Assembly: GCA_029856685.1 (NCBI GenBank)
Contig: JAHKKZ010000003.1
Location: 1 to 49,844, forward strand
Direction of reading: 5' to 3'
Length of the DNA: 49,844 bases
Origin: Candidatus Njordarchaeota archaeon
Lineage (GTDB): Archaea > Asgardarchaeota > Njordarchaeia > Njordarchaeales > Panguiarchaeaceae
The notes under the pieces were generated by a model. The model had not been told where the DNA came from. It was given only the letters and a program-made list of their open reading frames with translations, and made no database searches. This document shows, piece by piece, positions 10,500-40,160 of the stretch; positions within the stretch are counted from its first letter, which is position 1, and the number at the start of each line of letters is the position of its first letter. The position numbers and the translations under genes are program-made.

Positions 10500-11531
10500 A
10501 TGTCTTCCTATATGGTATATAAGCGGAAGAAGCCTTATCCCGAGAAGAAAAAAAGAAAAATAAAGGAGATTGCAAATTTGTTTAGGGAATATCATAACAT
10601 TCTACTTATTGGTATACGGGACGTTAATGCTAATCAGATGAAAGAACTGCGAAGGAAGCTTTGGGGCAAAGCTATCTGCAAGGTCATAAAGAACACTCTA
10701 GCTGAGTTGGCAATTGATACTGTTGCTAAGAAAAGAACAGAAGTCGCAATTTTGAAGGATTATCTGGTTGATATGCACGCACTAGTATTTACAAATGATG
10801 ACCCATTTGAAATAGCACGAATAATAGATTCCATTAAGGAAGACAGACCTCTTAAACCAGGACGAGTATCGCCAGTTGATGTTGTTATAAAGAAAGGTTT
10901 TACGGGATTTAGGCCTGGACCAGAACTTAATGAGATGAGAATGGCAGGGCTTCCGGTCAGGATACTTGATGGTGAGGTATTCATAACAAAGGATCATGTT
11001 TTGGTGCGAGCTGGGCAAGTAGTATCACCGTACGCAGCACGTGTCATGGCTCTCTTAGACATCAAACCTTTAAAGATCGGACCTAAAGTAATTATGGGAA
11101 TAGTTGATGGAATGCTTGTTAGTGGTGAGATTCTCCTTAAGCCATTTGAGGAGTATATTAAGGAGATTCAGATTACTATAAATGAAACAAAGACATTAGC
11201 TATTGAAGCGAAAATCTTCGTTCCAGAACTATTTGAAGACTTCGTAGGCCTCTCTATTAGAGAAGCTATAAGCTTGGCTACTATTATTGGATTTATCGCT
11301 CCTGATACACTACCAGAGGCGATAAGAGTAGCACTAAGTGAGATCTCCACGCTCCTAAATACCATAAAAGATGAGATTCCAGAAATCCCGGAGGATCTAC
11401 AGAAACTAATTTCTGCGACACCCACTAAGGAGAAAAAGGAAGAAGAGAAGAATGTGGAGAGAAAGAAAGAGGAGAAAAAGAAGAAAGAGGGTGAAGAGGA
11501 AGCACTAGCGGGATTAAACCTACTTTTCTAA
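10500..11531 (+). CDS. rpl10: Ribosomal protein L10 (P0, uL10)
   Basis: P-stalk scaffold of 343 residues. The N-terminal RNA-binding domain is visible (EYHNILLIGIRDVNANQMKELR), followed by the P0 insertion region and the C-terminal L12-binding helices. The end is a charged linker and an acidic tail [12 protein letters not shown], the motif shared with L12 that recruits elongation factors. L12, usually next in the operon, is instead at about 37.7 kb on the other strand. The 3' end overlaps the convergent Roadblock gene by 12 bases. Confidence 0.95.
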   Translation: MSSYMVYKRKKPYPEKKKRKIKEIANLFREYHNILLIGIRDVNANQMKELRRKLWGKAICKVIKNTLAELAIDTVAKKRTEVAILKDYLVDMHALVFTNDDPFEIARIIDSIKEDRPLKPGRVSPVDVVIKKGFTGFRPGPELNEMRMAGLPVRILDGEVFITKDHVLVRAGQVVSPYAARVMALLDIKPLKIGPKVIMGIVDGMLVSGEILLKPFEEYIKEIQITINETKTLAIEAKIFVPELFEDFVGLSIREAISLATIIGFIAPDTLPEAIRVALSEISTLLNTIKDEIPEIPEDLQKLISATPTKEKKEEEKNVERKKEEKKKKEGEEEALAGLNLLF

Positions 11532-11870
11532 AACCCTTTTTACTTTCATAACGATACTCTGTATTTTTTCTAAGTCTAAACTTTTTCTAGACATCGCCGC
11601 GACAACAAGACTATAATCACCATGTCTCACAAAAAGCAGGGCCAAACCACTTTGTAAGTATATTGTGAAAAAATTTATTTTGCCTGACATCGAAGGTACT
11701 CTATTAAGAGCATCCTCCGCGCTTTGAGCAATAATACCTGCGAACTCCACTATTTTGTATGCATTTTCTAGGTCTAAGTTCGCCTTTACTATCTCTTGGT
11801 GCCTACATAAAACGACGTATTTTATGTCTTCTCGGTTTACTAGGGCTTCATATATCTCTTCTAAACTCAA
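11520..11870 (-). CDS. Roadblock/LC7-domain protein 1
   Basis: A small single-domain protein of about 116 residues with the Roadblock/LC7 pattern: N-terminal helix (SLEEIYEALVNRE), a beta strand around KYVVLCRHQEIV, a long central helix (KIVEFAGIIAQSAEDAL), three strands (NFFTIYLQSGLALLFVR, YSLVVAAMS) and a C-terminal helix. Such proteins dimerise and act as regulators or GAPs of Ras-like GTPases (bacterial MglB). I place the start at TTG 11870, 7 bases after the GGT core of the GAGGTG site; an in-frame GTG at 11879 lies inside that site. It follows the p27-like gene directly. Confidence 0.68.
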   Translation of the reverse strand: MSLEEIYEALVNREDIKYVVLCRHQEIVKANLDLENAYKIVEFAGIIAQSAEDALNRVPSMSGKINFFTIYLQSGLALLFVRHGDYSLVVAAMSRKSLDLEKIQSIVMKVKRVLEK

Positions 11871-11880
11871 ACATACCACC

Positions 11881-12393
11881 TCATAGGAGTCTACGTATTT
11901 CCAAAAGCAACCTTAAAATTTCTAAGAGATCCTTGATGCTGAGTCTTCTAATTTCGAACTCGAGGGTATAGCTTATTTGATCCAAAATTCTTTTAACAAG
12001 TAGTTCTAGGAGCTTATCGATGTCTTCCATTTCGCTGGTTGGAAATCTAGGCTTTTCTTTCCCTGTATAAGCTCTTTCTTTAATTGTCTTATTCCCAACT
12101 CTAGGTTTCTCCTTAAATTCTACGATCTCTCCGCCACCAACTTCTCCTATAACTTTTATCCTTGATTTATCAATTCTTTTAAGCTCTTCTGGTGTGGCTA
12201 GGAATACCTCACAGTTAGGGCAATATCTTAACCCTACATCTTTTCTTAGAAATAGAATAGCTCCACAGCGGGGACATGTCTCATCGAGCATCCTGTGGCC
12301 TTCCCTGAGAAGCAAAACCATTTTTTGGATAAGCTTATCTTTAAGCTCTGGATTTCTTATCCAACTTTCCTCTTTATCATCTTTTCTCTTCAA
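11881..12393 (-). CDS. SSSCA1/p27 autoantigen-family zinc-ribbon protein
   Basis: The conserved block is LLREGHRMLDETCPRCGAILF followed by RYCPNCE: two CxxC pairs forming a zinc ribbon, as in the eukaryotic and archaeal Sjogren syndrome/scleroderma autoantigen 1 (ZNRD2) family. The role is unknown. A long helical C-terminus (leucine-rich, about 50 residues) follows a basic linker. I place the start at TTG 12393 with AGGTGCTGGATA before it; ATG at 12432 is an alternative. It is transcribed together with Roadblock protein 1, which begins 11 bases after its stop. Confidence 0.82.
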   Translation of the reverse strand: MKRKDDKEESWIRNPELKDKLIQKMVLLLREGHRMLDETCPRCGAILFLRKDVGLRYCPNCEVFLATPEELKRIDKSRIKVIGEVGGGEIVEFKEKPRVGNKTIKERAYTGKEKPRFPTSEMEDIDKLLELLVKRILDQISYTLEFEIRRLSIKDLLEILRLLLEIRRLL

Positions 12394-12565
12394 TATCCAG
12401 CACCTAACTAAGTATGTGGTAAAGAACTGCAAAATCAGATATCAGCATTAATTATGATTAAGTTAATATCAACACAAGATTAAAGAATTATCAAAGCGTT
12501 ACCACATTATTTTTATGCTAACAATGTTAGTATGTATGGTATTCGAGGAGTACATGGTGATTCAA

Positions 12566-22224: not shown

Positions 22225-23877
22225 ATGGCTGGTGCAGAAACACGTAAGGCTATCCCTGTCTTAGTATTAAAGGAGGGGACGCGACGTTCATATGGTACTG
22301 AGGCCTTAAGAAATAATATTCTTGCAGCAACAACACTCGCAAGAATGATGAAGACTAGTCTTGGTCCACGAGGATTAGACAAAATGCTTGTAGATCAGTT
22401 TGGAGATGTTGTAATAACTAATGATGGCGCAACTATACTCGATGAGATAGATATTGTCCATCCTGGAGCCAAATTCCTAGCAAAACTTTCCAAGTCACAG
22501 GACATTGAGGTCGGAGATGGAACGACAACCGTTGTAGTCCTTGCCGGCGAACTACTAAGCAAGGCCGAGGAACTTCTGGATAATGATATTCACCCAACAA
22601 AGATCATAGATGGGTACCTAATGGCTTTGAGAAAATCACTCGAAATTCTTGATAGCCTGGCAATAAAGATAGATCCAAATAAGAAAGAGGAAGTATTAAA
22701 AGTCGCTAAGACCTGCATCGCATCTAAGACTATCGCTCCGTACGCAGATCACTTTGCAAGCATCGCATACGAAGCTGTAAAGACAATCAGGTATGAGGAA
22801 AACGGTCGACTTAGGATTCCACTTGATGAAATAAAAATAGAAAAGAAAGAAGGAGGAAGCTTAACAGACACAGAGCTTATTTATGGCATTGTACTCGATA
22901 AAGAAATAGTACACCACAGAATGCCTAGAAAAGTTGAGGATGCAAAAATTCTTTTGATAGCATACCCACTAGAACTTGAAAAAAGCGAATTTGCCGATGT
23001 TCATGTATTCGCAGGAAAAACTTCAATAGATGCGCTTCTACGCTGGGAAAAAGAAAAACTCCAAGAGATGGCAGAAAAAATTATAAAGACGGGAGCAAAT
23101 GTCGTTATTTGCCAAAAAGGTATTGATGATATAGTACAACATTACTTAGCTAAAAACGGAATACTAGCTGTCAGAAGAGTCAAGAAAAGCGATATGGAAA
23201 AAATCGCTAAGGCTACTGGCGCGAAGATTATACAAAACGAAGAATTTTTAAGTTCTGATGCCCTAGGCTACGCAAATATTGTTGAGGAAAGGAAAGTTGG
23301 CGATGAAACAATGATATTTATCCGTGGATGCAAGAATCCGAGAGCAGTCTCGATTCTTATTCGGGGTGGCTCAAAGTTAACTGTAGAAGAGGCAGAAAGA
23401 AATCTAAAAGATCTGCTCCATGCAGTGAAAAATGTTATGCTTGACCCACGAATACTTCCTGCAGGCGGAGCACCTGAAATGGCCATTGCAATAAAGCTAC
23501 GTGAATTTGCTGAAAGAGAGCTAAGTGGTCGACAAAGCATAGTTGTCAAAGCATTTGCAGACGCCATTGAAGCTATTCCAAGCACACTCATAGAGACAGC
23601 CGGCCTTGATCCTATCGAAGATCTCAACAGACTTCGAACCTATCACGCGCAGGCTAAACATACCTATGGTGTCGATGTTATAAATGGCGGACTAGCTGAT
23701 ATGAGAGAACTTGGATACTTTGACCCCTTTGTCGTCAAGAAGAATGCTATTGAGTCCGCTGTCGAAGCTGCTGTAATGTTACTAAGAATCGATGATATAA
23801 TCGCAGCAAAAGAGGCCTTTGAATTAAAGAAGGAAGAAACAGAAGCAGAAGAGAGAGAATCTGAAGAAGAATTCTAG
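22225..23877 (+). CDS. Thermosome subunit (group II chaperonin)
   Basis: ATP-dependent folding chamber subunit of 550 residues. Signatures are [28 protein letters not shown] (P-loop region), [15 protein letters not shown] (catalytic Asp), and [15 protein letters not shown] and [17 protein letters not shown] near the end. The C-terminus is an acidic tail. ATG is preceded by GGTGATGGTCT. A T-tract follows the stop. It is a single-gene unit with a clear TATA box. Confidence 0.97.
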
Positions 23878-23879
23878 CC

Positions 23880-23889
23880 TTTTTTATTT
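23880..23889 (+). terminator. Poly-T terminator of the chaperonin gene
   Basis: A T-rich run just after the stop codon, as expected for archaeal oligo-T termination. Confidence 0.4.
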
Positions 23890-23977
23890 CTACCATTTAA
23901 TCTTTTCTGGCGAAGTCTCGAAGGAGATCAGTTACCACCTACCAGCTTAGAAAGTTCTACTATAGGAGCCCAAGAAA

Positions 23978-24035
23978 TCAGTGTAACTATGATTCTTCAT
24001 CGCATTTTCGCTCTGGCTTGCCGGGTTCTCATCAC
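23978..24035 (-). ncRNA. C/D box guide sRNA (predicted target 23S rRNA helix 69)
   Basis: The boxes are in order on the minus strand: C GTGATGA (24035-24029), 13-nt guide, D' CAGA (24015-24012), spacer, C' GCGATGA (24003-23997), 15-nt guide, D CTGA (23981-23978). The total of 58 nt is typical of archaeal C/D sRNAs. The D guide is complementary to GTAACTATGA of 23S helix 69. By the five-nucleotide rule the methylated base would be the second A of GUAAC, which I map to E. coli A1913 and yeast Am2256 (snR63). The D' target is not clear. A TATA-like AAAAAATATTT lies about 27 bases upstream (near 24060-24070). Confidence 0.82.
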
Positions 24036-24139
24036 CTGAAGGATTATATTAGTCGTTACAAATATTTTTTAACACATTTTAACACAAATTAATTTATATG
24101 TTTTTAGGATTTGTTGAACTGTTGAGGGTCTTGATAAGA

Positions 24140-24628
24140 ATGTCGGACGATGAGCTAAAGGAGCTTACTCCCGAGGAAATAGAAGCTCTAAGAGCCATGT
24201 TTTTTAAGGAAATCTCTGCGGGTCCTGCTGAGGAGCTTAGATTGATAGTTCATCCAGAACTCGAACAGCTACTATACAATAATGTGGATATTATGGCTGC
24301 ACTCTTAGTAGATTCATCGGGATTTCCAATAGATTTTGTTACAAAATACGAAACGAAGCTTAAACAGGAGGACCTCCTGGTGATTGCAAGTGCAAATATT
24401 TGGGGATTATTTGCTGCATCGGAACGAGAAAGCATGGGTCTTAACTTAGGGCACGTTAAAAGAATAATTACTAGGACTAAAAATGGTTTTCTGTTCATAA
24501 CAAGATGTGGAGAAAATTTTGTCTTAGCAGCAATAATTAGGCCGCGAGCCAGATTAGGAGTAATAATGCGCGAACTCGCAGTAACTGCTAAAAAAATTGC
24601 AGAGAAAACATCAAATTATACGCTATAA
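24140..24628 (+). CDS. Roadblock/LC7-domain protein 2
   Basis: After an acidic, charged N-terminus (SDDELKELTPEEIEALRAM), the Roadblock/LC7 domain spans about residues 45-155: NNVDIMAALLVDSSGFPIDFV, the helix DLLVIASANIWGLFAASE, and strands NGFLFITRCGENFVLAAIIR. Such domains partner Ras-like GTPases (MglB type). I chose ATG 24140 with GAGGGTCTTGATAAGA before it; an ATG at 24098 in frame has no ribosome site. It is a single gene convergent with the methyltransferase. Confidence 0.75.
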   Translation: MSDDELKELTPEEIEALRAMFFKEISAGPAEELRLIVHPELEQLLYNNVDIMAALLVDSSGFPIDFVTKYETKLKQEDLLVIASANIWGLFAASERESMGLNLGHVKRIITRTKNGFLFITRCGENFVLAAIIRPRARLGVIMRELAVTAKKIAEKTSNYTL

Positions 24629-24671
24629 TAAAATAGAATTTTGGAATTCTGCGACCCCTCGTTTTTCTTAG

Positions 24672-25673
24672 CTATATTTTCTCAGCTATAAAGCCTATGT
24701 ATCTCCCAACGCTCCGTAGAATTGGAGCTGACGAGAATTTATAATCGACACCTGCCAGAAACTTATGAAGTATTGAAAATCTCTTCGATTTAAAATCCAT
24801 TGGAAGTGTAGAGAAAATTCCCTTCAGGTATATAAGCCTTAGGCTATTTTTTCGTAACAAGTTATCTAGTTCAAAAATTGTATAAAAGTGTGTTGGTATC
24901 CTTACATAGCCCTGTCTTATAGGCACTCTAATTTTTGCAAATGGTCTATTAGCATAGCGTAGGGTCTTCACGAACAGAGAAAAACTACTAAGAACTTTGA
25001 ATATCCAATCTAGAGCAAATTTGTTAAGAACGGTACCTATGAAAATCCCGTTGGGACGCAAAACACGAGATATTTCCTTAAATGCTCTTGGAAAAATTAT
25101 AGAGTGATCAAGAGCACCAAACACTGCTAAAACAACATCAAAGATCGCATCTTTGAACGGCAAAAACTCCGCGGGGGCGCAGATAAAGTCTATGTTTCTT
25201 GCAGATAGAGCTTTAGATACTATCTTAGCTTCAAATAGGGCTTTAAGAGAGATGTCAATCCCAACGGCCCTAAATCTAATGTTTGTACTTATCCGCTGGA
25301 GGTACTCTCTTATTAGCCATAGTTCCCAACCGCTTCCACAACCTACGGACAGTATGTTAAGCTTTTTGATATTTCTGCTACCAATCAGATATCCCAGTCC
25401 ATGGATAATAAGCTCGGCTTGTTGTCGCCTTAAATGCCTAAACCAATCACTTCTTGATGCTCTCCAAGTATTTGGGGGGATCCGCCTATAAGCAGAGATT
25501 ACTTTTCTAAGATGCCTATGAAGGATTGTTGGATAGATTATTGGAACTCCGTGATATATCCTATAGATGCGATTTGAAGATTTTATGTATCCACCTAAAA
25601 TCTCGCCATCAGACTTCGCTGCATATAGCTCATCAACTCGTATGAGAAGAAAATCAAGGATCCATTCATACAT
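24672..25673 (-). CDS. Class I SAM-dependent methyltransferase
   Basis: The 333-residue protein has motif I LNILSVGCGSGWEL (about 104-117), an acidic motif II region (FRAVGIDISLKALFEA), and post-motif segments (CAPAEFLPFKDAIFDVVLAVFGALDH, FKEISRVLRPNGIF). The N-terminus looks like a Trm112/UPF0434-type module (NRIYRIYHGVPIIYP) that has lost its cysteines. The substrate is unknown; it resembles UbiE/lipid-type methyltransferases. It follows the RPA-like gene by 24 bases and is probably co-transcribed. Confidence 0.8.
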   Translation of the reverse strand: MYEWILDFLLIRVDELYAAKSDGEILGGYIKSSNRIYRIYHGVPIIYPTILHRHLRKVISAYRRIPPNTWRASRSDWFRHLRRQQAELIIHGLGYLIGSRNIKKLNILSVGCGSGWELWLIREYLQRISTNIRFRAVGIDISLKALFEAKIVSKALSARNIDFICAPAEFLPFKDAIFDVVLAVFGALDHSIIFPRAFKEISRVLRPNGIFIGTVLNKFALDWIFKVLSSFSLFVKTLRYANRPFAKIRVPIRQGYVRIPTHFYTIFELDNLLRKNSLRLIYLKGIFSTLPMDFKSKRFSILHKFLAGVDYKFSSAPILRSVGRYIGFIAEKI

Positions 25674-25697
25674 TACAGCACCACACTTTTGCTGTTT

Positions 25698-26543
25698 TTA
25701 TTCTGACATCACAATTTCTGTTTCAAGAACATCATAAAATCTCATTATGTAGATCTCCTCATCTTTAGAATAGGCCTTAATAATTACTTCCTTATCCTTC
25801 AGCCGATCTTTGGGTGGCTCTTTAAAGTATATGGCCTGAAACACTCCCGAACTGTCAGCTAGAAGATATCGCCATATGCGTTCTGTTACTGGTTGGTCTA
25901 TTTGACCATGTTCTGGGCAATACCAAGAATCTTCGACCATCTCAACACCCTTGCCACACAGCGGACATGCGGAATATTCGCTGGTGATCTCTTCTAAAAC
26001 GATAGCTTTCACTAACCATGCGCCTCTGTGCTCCATTACAAACTTTAGTGACTCAGCCCAAGCAGGTTTGAGCTCTGTTATCGGAGGGAGCGTAGTATCG
26101 TCTAGAATCTCAATGACAGAATTCTCTGTGACTTTTATTCCAGAATACTTTTCGAGCCTCATCTTAGTATAGCCACGTATCATTATGACATTATCCTCAT
26201 TACTGCGAAGAATTTCAACGTTATGTTCTCCGAATGCCACGCCCAGAACACGCCTTCGCTCATCAACTATGCTAAAAAGAACGAATGGCGTTCTTTCTTG
26301 AGTACCCTTCGTGTATCTCACTGGACCTACTTCCACAATCCTACCTATAATAGGTGGGTAAAATAAATCGTATGACTCTACACCAAAACGCCTAGCAACA
26401 ATAATTGCTGCCGCTCTAGGGCTCAGTTTCCCTTCCGTCTTATTCATTAGATCCCTAACTAGGTTATCAAACTCTTCTCTTGATATATCCGAACGCATTT
26501 TAACAAGCTTATACACATCGTTATATTCCTCCGAGCTCACCAT
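25698..26543 (-). CDS. RPA-like single-stranded DNA-binding protein with zinc finger
   Basis: Binds single-stranded DNA. The protein has an N-terminal helical region (YKLVKMRSDISREEFDNLV), an OB-fold segment (IIGRIVEVGPVRYTKGTQERTPFVLFSIVDERR and VLGVAFGEHNVEI), and a C-terminal zinc finger ACPLCGKGV with WYCPEHG, as in archaeal RPA41-type subunits. Length is 281 residues. It is the first gene of a two-gene unit with the methyltransferase. Confidence 0.85.
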   Translation of the reverse strand: MVSSEEYNDVYKLVKMRSDISREEFDNLVRDLMNKTEGKLSPRAAAIIVARRFGVESYDLFYPPIIGRIVEVGPVRYTKGTQERTPFVLFSIVDERRRVLGVAFGEHNVEILRSNEDNVIMIRGYTKMRLEKYSGIKVTENSVIEILDDTTLPPITELKPAWAESLKFVMEHRGAWLVKAIVLEEITSEYSACPLCGKGVEMVEDSWYCPEHGQIDQPVTERIWRYLLADSSGVFQAIYFKEPPKDRLKDKEVIIKAYSKDEEIYIMRFYDVLETEIVMSE

Positions 26544-26636
26544 GAATATTACCCATATTAATCAGCGAACCACATCATCTGATAAGTCAAACTTTAAAAA
26601 GACATAAATATTAAAAGACAAACTTCGAAGAAAAAA

Positions 26637-26711
26637 GCCCCGGTGGTGTAGAAGGCCAAGCATCCCGGCCTTTCAAGCCGGGGATCGCGGGTTCAAGTCC
26701 CGCCCGGGGCA
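26637..26711 (+). tRNA. tRNA-Glu(UUC)
   Basis: The acceptor GCCCCGG pairs with CCGGGGC, with discriminator A. The D stem is GTGT, the anticodon stem CCGGC/GCCGG with loop CTTTCAA, and the T arm GCGGG-TTCAAGT-CCCGC. The anticodon is TTC. There is no intron and no encoded CCA. TATA-like AACTTTAAAAAG and CATAAATATT elements lie upstream. Confidence 0.95.
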
Positions 26712-26833
26712 CTAACACTATATTCTTTCTGGAAGATAAATTCCTCAAACAATAAAATATCCTTGTCATTAAGGACGAATAACATCATATTGTTTCTTCA
26801 AACGTATTGATATACTCTAACTCATGTATATCA

Positions 26834-26842
26834 TTTTATAAA
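26834..26842 (+). promoter_or_regulatory. TATA box of actin gene
   Basis: TTTTATAAA sits about 70 bases before the TTG start, giving a predicted transcription start near 26862 and a leader of about 45 bases. Confidence 0.5.
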
Positions 26843-26905
26843 AGAGATAATGAAGTAATATTCGGTGAAATATCAATTTAATAATAATGCTAGGAGGTGT
26901 CAAGT

Positions 26906-28069
26906 TTGGCAGGAGCAGCTCCAACTCACAAAATTCCTGAACTAGAAAGACCAGCAGTAGTAGCAGACCTTGGAACAGGATTCACAAAAGCTGGATTTGC
27001 TGGAGATGATGCACCAAGAACTGTATTTCCGACAGTTGTGGGGTACCCGAAGTACTCAGTCGTAATGCCAGAAGCCGAAACACTAGAATACTATGTAGGC
27101 CGCGACGCAATACACATGAGAGGGGTACTACAACTAGTATGGCCTCTGGAGCACGCTATCGTTGCTGATTGGGATGCTTGGGAGAAACTTATGTTTCATC
27201 TATTCTATAAGGAGCTTAGGGTGAATCCACAAGATCAAGCTATTCTCATTACTGAAGCCCCCTTAAGCCCTAAAGATAATAGGATTCGTATGGCTGAGAT
27301 ACTCTTCGAGACTTTCGGTGTTCCTGGGATATACGTTGCTACGCAGGCTATTCTCTCTCTATATGCAGCGGGTAGAGTTACAGGGTTGGTAATAGATTCT
27401 GGTGATGGTGTTACCCACATAGTTCCCGTGCAAGAGTCATACTTATTAGCCCATGCTGTTAAGAGGCTTAATCTTGCTGGACGCGATGTTACGCGATATT
27501 TAGCTAAGTTGCTTACGAAGAGAGGCATCTACTTTACTTCCTCCGCCGAAATGGAGATTGCTAGAGATATCAAAGAGAAGCTATGTTATATTGCTATCGA
27601 TTATAAGGCCGAATTAGAGAAAGCCAAGAAGATTCCTAAGGCTGTTGCAGGAATGTACGAACTCCCAGATGGACGCGTGATTGAGCTTGTGGAAGAGAGA
27701 TTCATGGCCCCAGAGATCATGTATAACCCTATGCTTATAGGGCTTGAAGCTAGACCTTTGGATGAACTAGTTCTCGAGAGCATTTTCGCTACGGACTTGG
27801 ACGTCAGACCTGCGATGTATTCAAATATTGTGATTTCTGGTGGTAACACTATGCTACCTAACTTCGCTGAGAGGTTAGAAAAAGAGCTCAAGGAAATCGT
27901 CCCTGAAAGAGCTAAAGATAAGATCGCTATTGATGCACCTGAAGAGCGTATATACGGTGTTTTCATTGGTGGATCTATACTGGCTTCATTACCTGCATTC
28001 AAGAAAATTGTTGTTACAAGAAAAGAGTGGTCTGAAGTTGGTCCAGACTCTGTTCTCAGGACTCTATAG
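26906..28069 (+). CDS. Actin homologue (crenactin class, strikingly eukaryote-like)
   Basis: ATP-dependent filament protein of the actin fold. It shares long blocks with eukaryotic actin: the phosphate-1 loop DLGTGFTKAG, AGFAGDDAPRTVFPTVVG, ITEAPLSPKDNR, IDSGDGVTHIVPV (phosphate-2), LNLAGRDVTRYL, RDIKEKLCYIA, SGGNTMLPN, and GGSILASLPAFKK. Length is about 387 residues, close to actin. I chose TTG 26906, as AGGAGGTG lies just before it and the GTG in that site is unlikely to start translation. The MglA-like gene follows in the same direction after 130 bases. Confidence 0.95.
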   Translation: MAGAAPTHKIPELERPAVVADLGTGFTKAGFAGDDAPRTVFPTVVGYPKYSVVMPEAETLEYYVGRDAIHMRGVLQLVWPLEHAIVADWDAWEKLMFHLFYKELRVNPQDQAILITEAPLSPKDNRIRMAEILFETFGVPGIYVATQAILSLYAAGRVTGLVIDSGDGVTHIVPVQESYLLAHAVKRLNLAGRDVTRYLAKLLTKRGIYFTSSAEMEIARDIKEKLCYIAIDYKAELEKAKKIPKAVAGMYELPDGRVIELVEERFMAPEIMYNPMLIGLEARPLDELVLESIFATDLDVRPAMYSNIVISGGNTMLPNFAERLEKELKEIVPERAKDKIAIDAPEERIYGVFIGGSILASLPAFKKIVVTRKEWSEVGPDSVLRTL

Positions 28070-28085
28070 TTTTTTCGTTTTTATT
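28070..28085 (+). terminator. Poly-T terminator of the actin gene
   Basis: TTTTTTCGTTTTTATT follows the actin stop codon directly, as expected for archaeal termination. If used, actin and the GTPase gene have separate transcripts, though read-through is possible. Confidence 0.45.
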
Positions 28086-28199
28086 CCTACAAATACATAC
28101 TTAAAATTATCTTTATTTTTCAACAAATGTTGTTTTTTGATAGTAATGGCTTTAGTGGTTTTTTGTACTTTATTAGTGTACTTGTAGGGTGCGGTAGTC

Positions 28200-28823
28200 A
28201 TGGTTTTTAAAGATAAGTATGGTCACTATCGATTTAAAATTGTACTGTATGGACCCTCACTAAGTGGGAAAACAACAATGCTAAAAATACTGTACAATAA
28301 GATAAGGGGCCTCAAAAAGGGGCGGTTACGCATGGTTGCTGACCAATCTGGACGAACAATATTCTTCGACTACTTACCACTTAAAACTTCTGGCAACATA
28401 TTCTTCGATTTATATACTGTCCCAGGACAGAGAAGACATAAAACTCAGAGACGCCTAATACTTAAGGGTGCTGATTCTGTAGTATTTGTTGCGGATTCCG
28501 ATCCAGAAGCTCTCGAAGAGAATATTTATAGCATTCAAGAGCTTAGAACTTTTCTGGGCAACGAATGGGGAGAGATACCAATAGTTGTCGCTCTAAATAA
28601 ACGTGACCTGCCTGATGCACTCCCAGAAGTCATGATGTTACGTGTTATGCGTCTCGATGGTCCATATCCCGTATTTAAAACTGTAGCCATAGAAGGGTTA
28701 GGTGTAAAACGTGTATTCCAGGAAGCTTGTCGTCTAGCAGTTTTGGCCAGAATATTCCCTGAAGCTTTTAGAAGAGAGATCAAAATCTTGGCTAGAGAAA
28801 CCCGACGAAAACTTGGTCTCTGA
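28200..28823 (+). CDS. MglA-like small GTPase
   Basis: The 207-residue Ras-superfamily GTPase has G1 GPSLSGKTT (18-26), a G3 TVPGQRRHKTQRRLIL (73-88) with MglA-type PGQ, and G4 ALNKRDLPDA (131-140). The segment VVFVADSDPEALEENIYSI closely matches MglA. MglA is controlled by the Roadblock protein MglB and drives polarity with the actin homologue MreB in bacteria. Start ATG has GGTGCGGTAGTC before it. It is next to actin, and three Roadblock proteins lie in the window. Confidence 0.88.
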   Translation: MVFKDKYGHYRFKIVLYGPSLSGKTTMLKILYNKIRGLKKGRLRMVADQSGRTIFFDYLPLKTSGNIFFDLYTVPGQRRHKTQRRLILKGADSVVFVADSDPEALEENIYSIQELRTFLGNEWGEIPIVVALNKRDLPDALPEVMMLRVMRLDGPYPVFKTVAIEGLGVKRVFQEACRLAVLARIFPEAFRREIKILARETRRKLGL

Positions 28824-39339: not shown

Positions 39340-39422
39340 GCGGGGGTTCCGGAGAGGTCAAACGGGCGGGACTTAGGATCCCGTGGCGTATGCCTTCGCG
39401 GGTTCGAATCCCGCCCCCCGCA
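39340..39422 (+). tRNA. tRNA-Leu(UAG)
   Basis: Class II tRNA with acceptor GCGGGGG/CCCCCGC, discriminator A, anticodon stem CGGGA/TCCCG with loop CTTAGGA, a long variable arm (TGGCGTATGCCTTC), and T arm GCGGG-TTCGAAT-CCCGC. There is no intron and no encoded CCA. It is 67 bases downstream of the tyrosine recombinase. Confidence 0.94.
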
Positions 39423-39656: not shown

Positions 39657-40160
39657 ATGGTTACCGTGGTAAGTATGGAAGAAGCTGATAAACTAGATGT
39701 AGCTCTAAGGAAGATCTATGATAAGCTGAACAAGCTCATTAGGGAAATGGCTAGAAGTCTTGGAAATGTCGAATTAATAGTTGTAAGCGCCGACGGTGTT
39801 CCTATAGCCGACTATAGTGCTAAGCCGAGAAGCGATGAGAGAATAAACGAGATAGCATCGCTCCTTAACGGATCTTTAGAGGGGCTTCAAACGCTCTTCA
39901 CGGAAATCTTAAAATTGGACATAAGTTTTGGTAGGGATTTTCTTTTCCTCGAGACACAGGACTCTATAATTGTTTTGCTTCACATAGGCAAAGCAACATT
40001 ACTCACACATGTCCGTAAGCCAGCTTTATTAGGAACTGTTCGTGCTATCATTAAGAATTATCTACCCAGAATCAGTAAGCTTATAGAAGAGCTTCAGAAC
40101 GTCCAGAACAAACTCCTTGTCGCCGAGGTATATCGAGATATAATTCCGCAATCGAAGTAG
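39657..40160 (+). CDS. Roadblock/LC7-domain protein 3
   Basis: Residues about 30-140 have the Roadblock/LC7 pattern: NVELIVVSADGVPIADYSA, a helix (RINEIASLLNGSLEGLQTL), strands DFLFLETQDSIIVLLHIGKATLLT and helix TVRAIIKNYLPRISKLIEEL. The N-terminal helix (ALRKIYDKLNKLIREMARS) and C-terminal region are coiled-coil-like. I chose ATG 39657 with AGGTGCTAGTCTTA before it (ATG 39675 is possible). A TATA-like CATAAAAA lies near 39597. Third Roadblock protein here. Confidence 0.75.
   Translation: MVTVVSMEEADKLDVALRKIYDKLNKLIREMARSLGNVELIVVSADGVPIADYSAKPRSDERINEIASLLNGSLEGLQTLFTEILKLDISFGRDFLFLETQDSIIVLLHIGKATLLTHVRKPALLGTVRAIIKNYLPRISKLIEELQNVQNKLLVAEVYRDIIPQSK

Follow-up and report, generated by a model that had tools for sequence, protein, structure and literature searches.

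An MglA-type GTPase with an intrinsic Arg finger and probable Roadblock regulators, beside an actin gene in a Njordarchaeales genome

Actin, MglA and Roadblock genes of the window

The analysed stretch of DNA (hereafter the window; 49,844 nucleotides) is contig C176 of a 1.93-Mb, 79% complete genome (G000) from the Asgard group Njordarchaeales. Two genomes of the same order, M288 (G007) and B7_G17 (G003), were deposited as Njordarchaeota, and the sister genome from the same genus (g1), JZ-1.bin_83 (G001), was deposited as 'Crenarchaeota archaeon'; completeness of G000 and G001 is 79-81%. Hot environments are the main habitat of Njordarchaea (PMC12993045; see also Eme et al. PMC10307638). The features compared here are listed in Table 1, and the same region also holds ribosomal and DNA-replication genes.

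Table 1. Positions of the compared features within the window
Feature	Position	Strand	Basis or remark
Divergent short Roadblock, nearest RB1 type	11520..11879	-	Predicted fold; MglA link unproven
Roadblock/LC7, RB3-like (subtype following MglA in other Asgards)	24098..24628	+	PF03259, 31.6 bits
tRNA-Glu	26637..26712	+	ARAGORN; just 5' of actin
Asgard-type actin	26906..28069	+	PF00022; TTG start; single copy found in G000
Intergenic gap, 130 bp	28070..28199	+	Several T-runs immediately past the actin stop
MglA-type small GTPase, 207 aa	28200..28823	+	PDB search, catalytic columns, tree
Divergent Roadblock, long terminal helices	39663..40160	+	Predicted fold closest to MglB; MglA link unproven

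The first-pass annotation had described a eukaryote-like actin with long conserved blocks. All four blocks (AGFAGDDAPR, SGDGVTH, RDIKEKLCY and GGSILASL) were found in the protein, which matched PF00022 with 369.6 bits (E=2e-110) and retained the ATP-site motifs. The start given by the ORF tool was GTG 26897; we took TTG 26906 as the start, because AGGAGGTG at 26892-26899 suits it better. One actin match only was found in G000. With actin matches in 140 of 148 Asgard genomes, this is the widespread Asgard actin (lokiactin family), represented by a single close orthologue that shares 90% identity with its G001 counterpart, 69-73% with other Njord actins and 54-57% with most other Asgard actins. 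Searches and tree together place the protein in the actin family proper, with Asgard and eukaryotic actins and not with crenactin or MreB. In the tree, which was unrooted and built without a crenactin outgroup, Njord actins differed from other Asgard actins in forming one deep clade of their own (support 100/98), and eukaryotic actins showed no specific alliance with them. A crenactin identity was ruled out by profile score (36.9 bits vs a cut-off of 630); the locus resembles crenactin-arcadin clusters in placing an archaeal actin among neighbour genes, but its actin is not a crenactin. A gelsolin-like gene near actin in G002 and G007, guessed by eye, gained no support from Pfam, which found no gelsolin in G000 or G001 either.

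The next gene on the same strand had been called an MglA-type GTPase, and the call held. The closest solved relatives in the PDB search were four MglA sequences (T. thermophilus 3t12, E=1.1e-42; M. xanthus 6hjh, 4e-34), whereas Arf and Rab matches reached E=6e-8 or weaker, a lead of more than 25 orders of magnitude for MglA over Rab, Arf and Rag. The catalytic columns were all kept, namely P-loop K24, T53, the G3 motif TVPGQ, Q77 and, at the Arg finger position, R52; by alignment, R52 and Q77 are the equivalents of MglA R53 and Gln82. Both TVPGQ and VFVADS, the motifs cited in the annotation, were present. The G3 motif has no Asp, and its TVPGQ spelling, common to Njord MglAs, is the bacterial form, in contrast to TVAGQ in most other Asgard MglAs. 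In the tree, the Njord proteins grouped as a single supported clade within the Asgard MglAs (98/97). The protein is a true MglA type, a bacterial-type molecular switch. Used as a query, it had a match in 148/148 Asgard genomes, the weaker of these matches possibly being other Ras-family GTPases, and about 8 MglA-like or Ras-like matches were found per genome. A second MglA-like sequence in G000 (L207:1-677, G000:C102) is split over two ORFs with an altered P-loop (GPALSSKAT) and looks degenerate or mis-assembled.

Three Roadblock proteins had been placed at 11.5, 24.1 and 39.7 kb, and all three were recovered, the 24.1-kb protein by Pfam and the other two by predicted folds. Pfam gave no Roadblock match for the 11.5- and 39.7-kb ORFs or for their G001 homologues. 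The model of the 11.5-kb protein (pLDDT 77.4) has the order H-EE-H-EEE-H, and Foldseek matched it to dynein Roadblock, Ragulator and Asgard Roadblocks; the model of the 39.7-kb protein (pLDDT 80.2) best matched M. xanthus and T. thermophilus MglB (E=5e-8). On these models, both proteins are predicted to have a Roadblock fold. The 39.7-kb ORF (39663-40160) is nested in a longer ORF starting at 39390. All three Roadblocks are conserved in G001, within 28 kb.

Actin-MglA adjacency within one genus

To assess how widely actin and MglA adjoin, we scored the 87 genomes with both genes among the matches listed. Adjacency was found in two, G000 and G001, both of genus g1 (match ends 134 and 131 bp apart). 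Among 80 named actin loci, with flanks of up to 10 kb per side and many ending early at contig ends, the MglA-type GTPase was present in one, JZ-1.bin_83 (G001); outside genus g1, no actin locus had this GTPase in the flanks examined (up to 10 kb). In other Njord families MglA follows PCNA (G002, G006 and G008) or ribosomal protein L2 (G003), neighbours that were identified from their own sequences rather than by profile search. Among the genomes scored, the adjacency recurred in the sister species but in no further genus, and a conserved GTPase-switched actin module beyond genus g1 is not supported.

The two genus g1 genomes share gene order and orientation, with coding gaps of 130 bp in the window and 118 bp in G001. 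Within the genus, the pair seems to have been flipped in place between its two sets of neighbours, thermosome-Roadblock-methyltransferase and MoxR-vWA-FEN1. A tRNA-like call (ARAGORN), which in G001 lies on the opposite side of the pair, is consistent with such a local inversion. In a comparison of window 22225-28823 with L144, the thermosome gene and, separately, the actin-MglA pair had opposite orientations in the two species, and G001 lacked at this spot the RPA-like gene that the window has at 25.7 kb.

These data bear on a genus-specific module in which actin and MglA would be co-transcribed, MglA-GTP would position or regulate the actin filament, and the 24.1-kb Roadblock would act as GAP or GEF. 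Order, orientation and near-equal spacing persist in two species whose actins share 90% and MglAs 87% identity, the pair stayed together although the block seems flipped in one of them, and an RB3-type Roadblock (see below) lies nearby in both; a real link would also produce the near-identical arrangement that was seen, a point against a chance origin. However, inverting two genes together leaves them adjacent whether or not selection acts, and the two genomes amount to a single event. By our own estimate, a chance actin-GTPase pair would be expected in roughly one in four surveys of such size (2 x 8 / 2800 genes x 50 genera = 0.3 expected, for adjacency in at least 1 of 50 genera). Because of the T-runs after the actin stop and the poor conservation of the gap in the pairwise alignment with G001, co-transcription is rather unlikely. 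With the pair found in no further Njord or Asgard genome among those scored, we consider the module improbable; the evidence favours chance, and the tie of actin to MglA is probably fortuitous.

The annotation had also pointed to Myxococcus, where MglA works with MreB (Mauriello 2010, as cited in PMC4316618), and the module would draw on the same precedent. This analogy was not strengthened by our results. MreB belongs to an actin family distinct from Asgard actin, and we know of no bacterial MglA-MglB coupling with actin adjacency. Were the adjacency functional, it would be the first genomic tie of an Asgard actin to a small GTPase known to us, as we are aware of no earlier case.

The RB1-RB2-MglA-RB3 block and the Roadblocks of the window

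Most other Asgard families carry a conserved block of RB1 (~99 aa), RB2 (~155 aa), MglA and RB3 (~125 aa), often accompanied by a cis-prenyltransferase and, in several lineages, by an extra divergent Roadblock upstream on the other strand. The block was seen at loci L151, L154-L156, L158-L164, L169-L171 and L183, and MglA and RB3 were no more than 3 kb apart in 69 of the 96 genomes with both among the matches listed. Variants include RB1-MglA alone in Heimdall family f18 and the loss of one member in a few other families. The loci examined from Loki, Odin, f4, f11, f19, f23, f24 and Njord lacked the block. One genome listed in the Njord order, G009 (L149, G009:C343), is 12% contaminated, and its MglA block branches with family f9 in the tree and so probably comes from another Asgard.

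Against solved structures, the RB3 profile matched Thor-RB 7f8m (E=2.8e-32) and Roadblock3 9jue (E=8.9e-32) most strongly and reached MglB at E=9e-7; the solved Asgard Roadblocks also include the MK-D1 Roadblock 7yh1. Coupling of MglA with one or two MglBs is well known, and 390 of 449 small prokaryotic MglAs are coupled to a Roadblock (PMC4316618). Three distinct Roadblocks per MglA would be a variant of this coupling. Tran et al. (PMC10933270), who worked from Loki strain MK-D1, concluded that GTPase genes do not as a rule share operons with Roadblocks; our survey bears this out at the single Loki locus examined and disagrees for most other families, where the block was found. A literature search of openly licensed papers found no report of the RB1-RB2-MglA-RB3 block. 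The matching of Roadblocks to small GTPases in Asgards has been held hard to predict from genome layout (PMC10933270), and the block provides a specific, testable match across many families that bears on the origin of Roadblock-regulated GTPases before eukaryotes.

In the window the block is broken up: of its Roadblocks, an RB3-type one alone was recognised near MglA. In profile-profile comparison (hhalign), the 24.1-kb Roadblock matched RB3 best (E=4.4e-23, vs 1.1e-10 for RB2 and 1.3e-8 for RB1), overturning the RB2 type suggested by a first HMM scan, and it matched Roadblock3 9jue of MK-D1 at E=4.8e-17. This protein and its homologue were the sole matches of the RB3 profile in G000 and G001. 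Its gene is the fourth protein gene from MglA in the window and the second in G001, and so lies within the four genes used in PMC4316618 to define coupling, a borderline placement given the other GTPase beside its G002 homologue. The arrangement in the window fits a dispersed remnant of the block, because the 24.1-kb Roadblock is of RB3 type, is the sole RB3 match and lies near MglA in both genomes.

The other two Roadblocks were less readily placed. The 11.5-kb protein aligned to the RB1 profile at E=4.4e-7, and the 39.7-kb protein to RB3 at E=1.3e-8 with a weak lean to RB3 over RB2; neither is assignable to the conserved MglA set, and the RB1 and RB2 profiles recognised no counterpart at the locus in G000 or G001 (genomes 79-81% complete). 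A one-to-one assignment of RB1, RB3 and RB2 to the 11.5-, 24.1- and 39.7-kb genes was rejected, with the RB3 type of the 24.1-kb protein alone well supported. Of the proposed tie between the Roadblocks and MglA, what stood was the Asgard-wide linkage and the RB3-type gene four genes away, while the part resting on the 11.5- and 39.7-kb genes did not.

The same neighbourhoods were weighed against a reading in which no functional link exists and actin, MglA and each of the three Roadblocks do independent housekeeping. The 11.5-kb Roadblock comes 1 nt after a p27/Sjogren autoantigen-type zinc-ribbon gene (PF06677; the two genes span 11520-12432, minus strand), and methyltransferase and RPA-like genes adjoin the 24.1-kb Roadblock, as they do near its homologues in other Njord genomes; such company fits unlinked genes. 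In G002, a homologue of the 24.1-kb Roadblock begins 8 nt after a Ras-family GTPase (PF00071, E=3e-54; L211:1736-2757, G002:C127), and since it directly follows that gene, the partner of the 24.1-kb protein may be another GTPase. Yet the strong MglA-Roadblock linkage in other Asgards, the coupling of small MglAs in prokaryotes at large and the position of the genome's sole RB3-profile match near MglA all speak against separate genes, and we judge that reading unlikely.

Proposed regulation of MglA

Because the actin pairing is confined to one genus and the Roadblock block spans most other Asgards, Roadblocks rather than actin are the likely partners of MglA. The interpretation that we favour, with reasonable though incomplete confidence, is that the MglA switch supplies an Arg finger itself and has Roadblocks as regulators, with the RB3-like 24.1-kb protein as candidate regulator and the actin adjacency probably arising by chance. 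The Asgard MglA-type switch would have been inherited vertically. Its GTP hydrolysis would rely on the intrinsic Arg finger R52 and Gln Q77 and be assisted by a Roadblock dimer bound to MglA in the manner of MglB. Three specialised Roadblocks (RB1, RB2 and RB3) would serve a single MglA in most Asgards, encoded in the conserved block, which in Njordarchaeales would have become dispersed. In genus g1, the 24.1-kb RB3-like protein would be the best remaining candidate regulator, and the single actin gene would have come to lie immediately 5' of MglA when the genus arose from its ancestor, most likely by chance, the two genes probably being transcribed and acting separately. Comparison across Asgards supports the GTPase-Roadblock link in general, whereas for the window proteins themselves it is a proposal. 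The analysis establishes family membership, catalytic residues, distribution and gene neighbourhoods; Roadblock binding, GAP or GEF action and independence from actin are inferred.

The window system shares with MglA-MglB of Myxococcus and Thermus the MglA fold and sequence, TVPGQ, the intrinsic Arg finger and Gln, and a Roadblock within four genes. It differs in that its MglA adjoins actin, its Roadblocks stand apart from MglA on either strand, and it has no known link to motility or polarity. A more speculative possibility, to which we give little credence, is that an ancestral Asgard MglA with three Roadblocks, and a fourth divergent one in several lineages, formed a multi-Roadblock GTPase complex that could foreshadow Ragulator-like assemblies, and that this switch was wired to the actin gene in one Njord genus. 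In another Njord genome, an archaeal ParM/MreB-like actin homologue (ALP_N, MreB-like_C; L208:7143-8207, G008:C57) lies 4.4 kb from a homologue of the 24.1-kb Roadblock.
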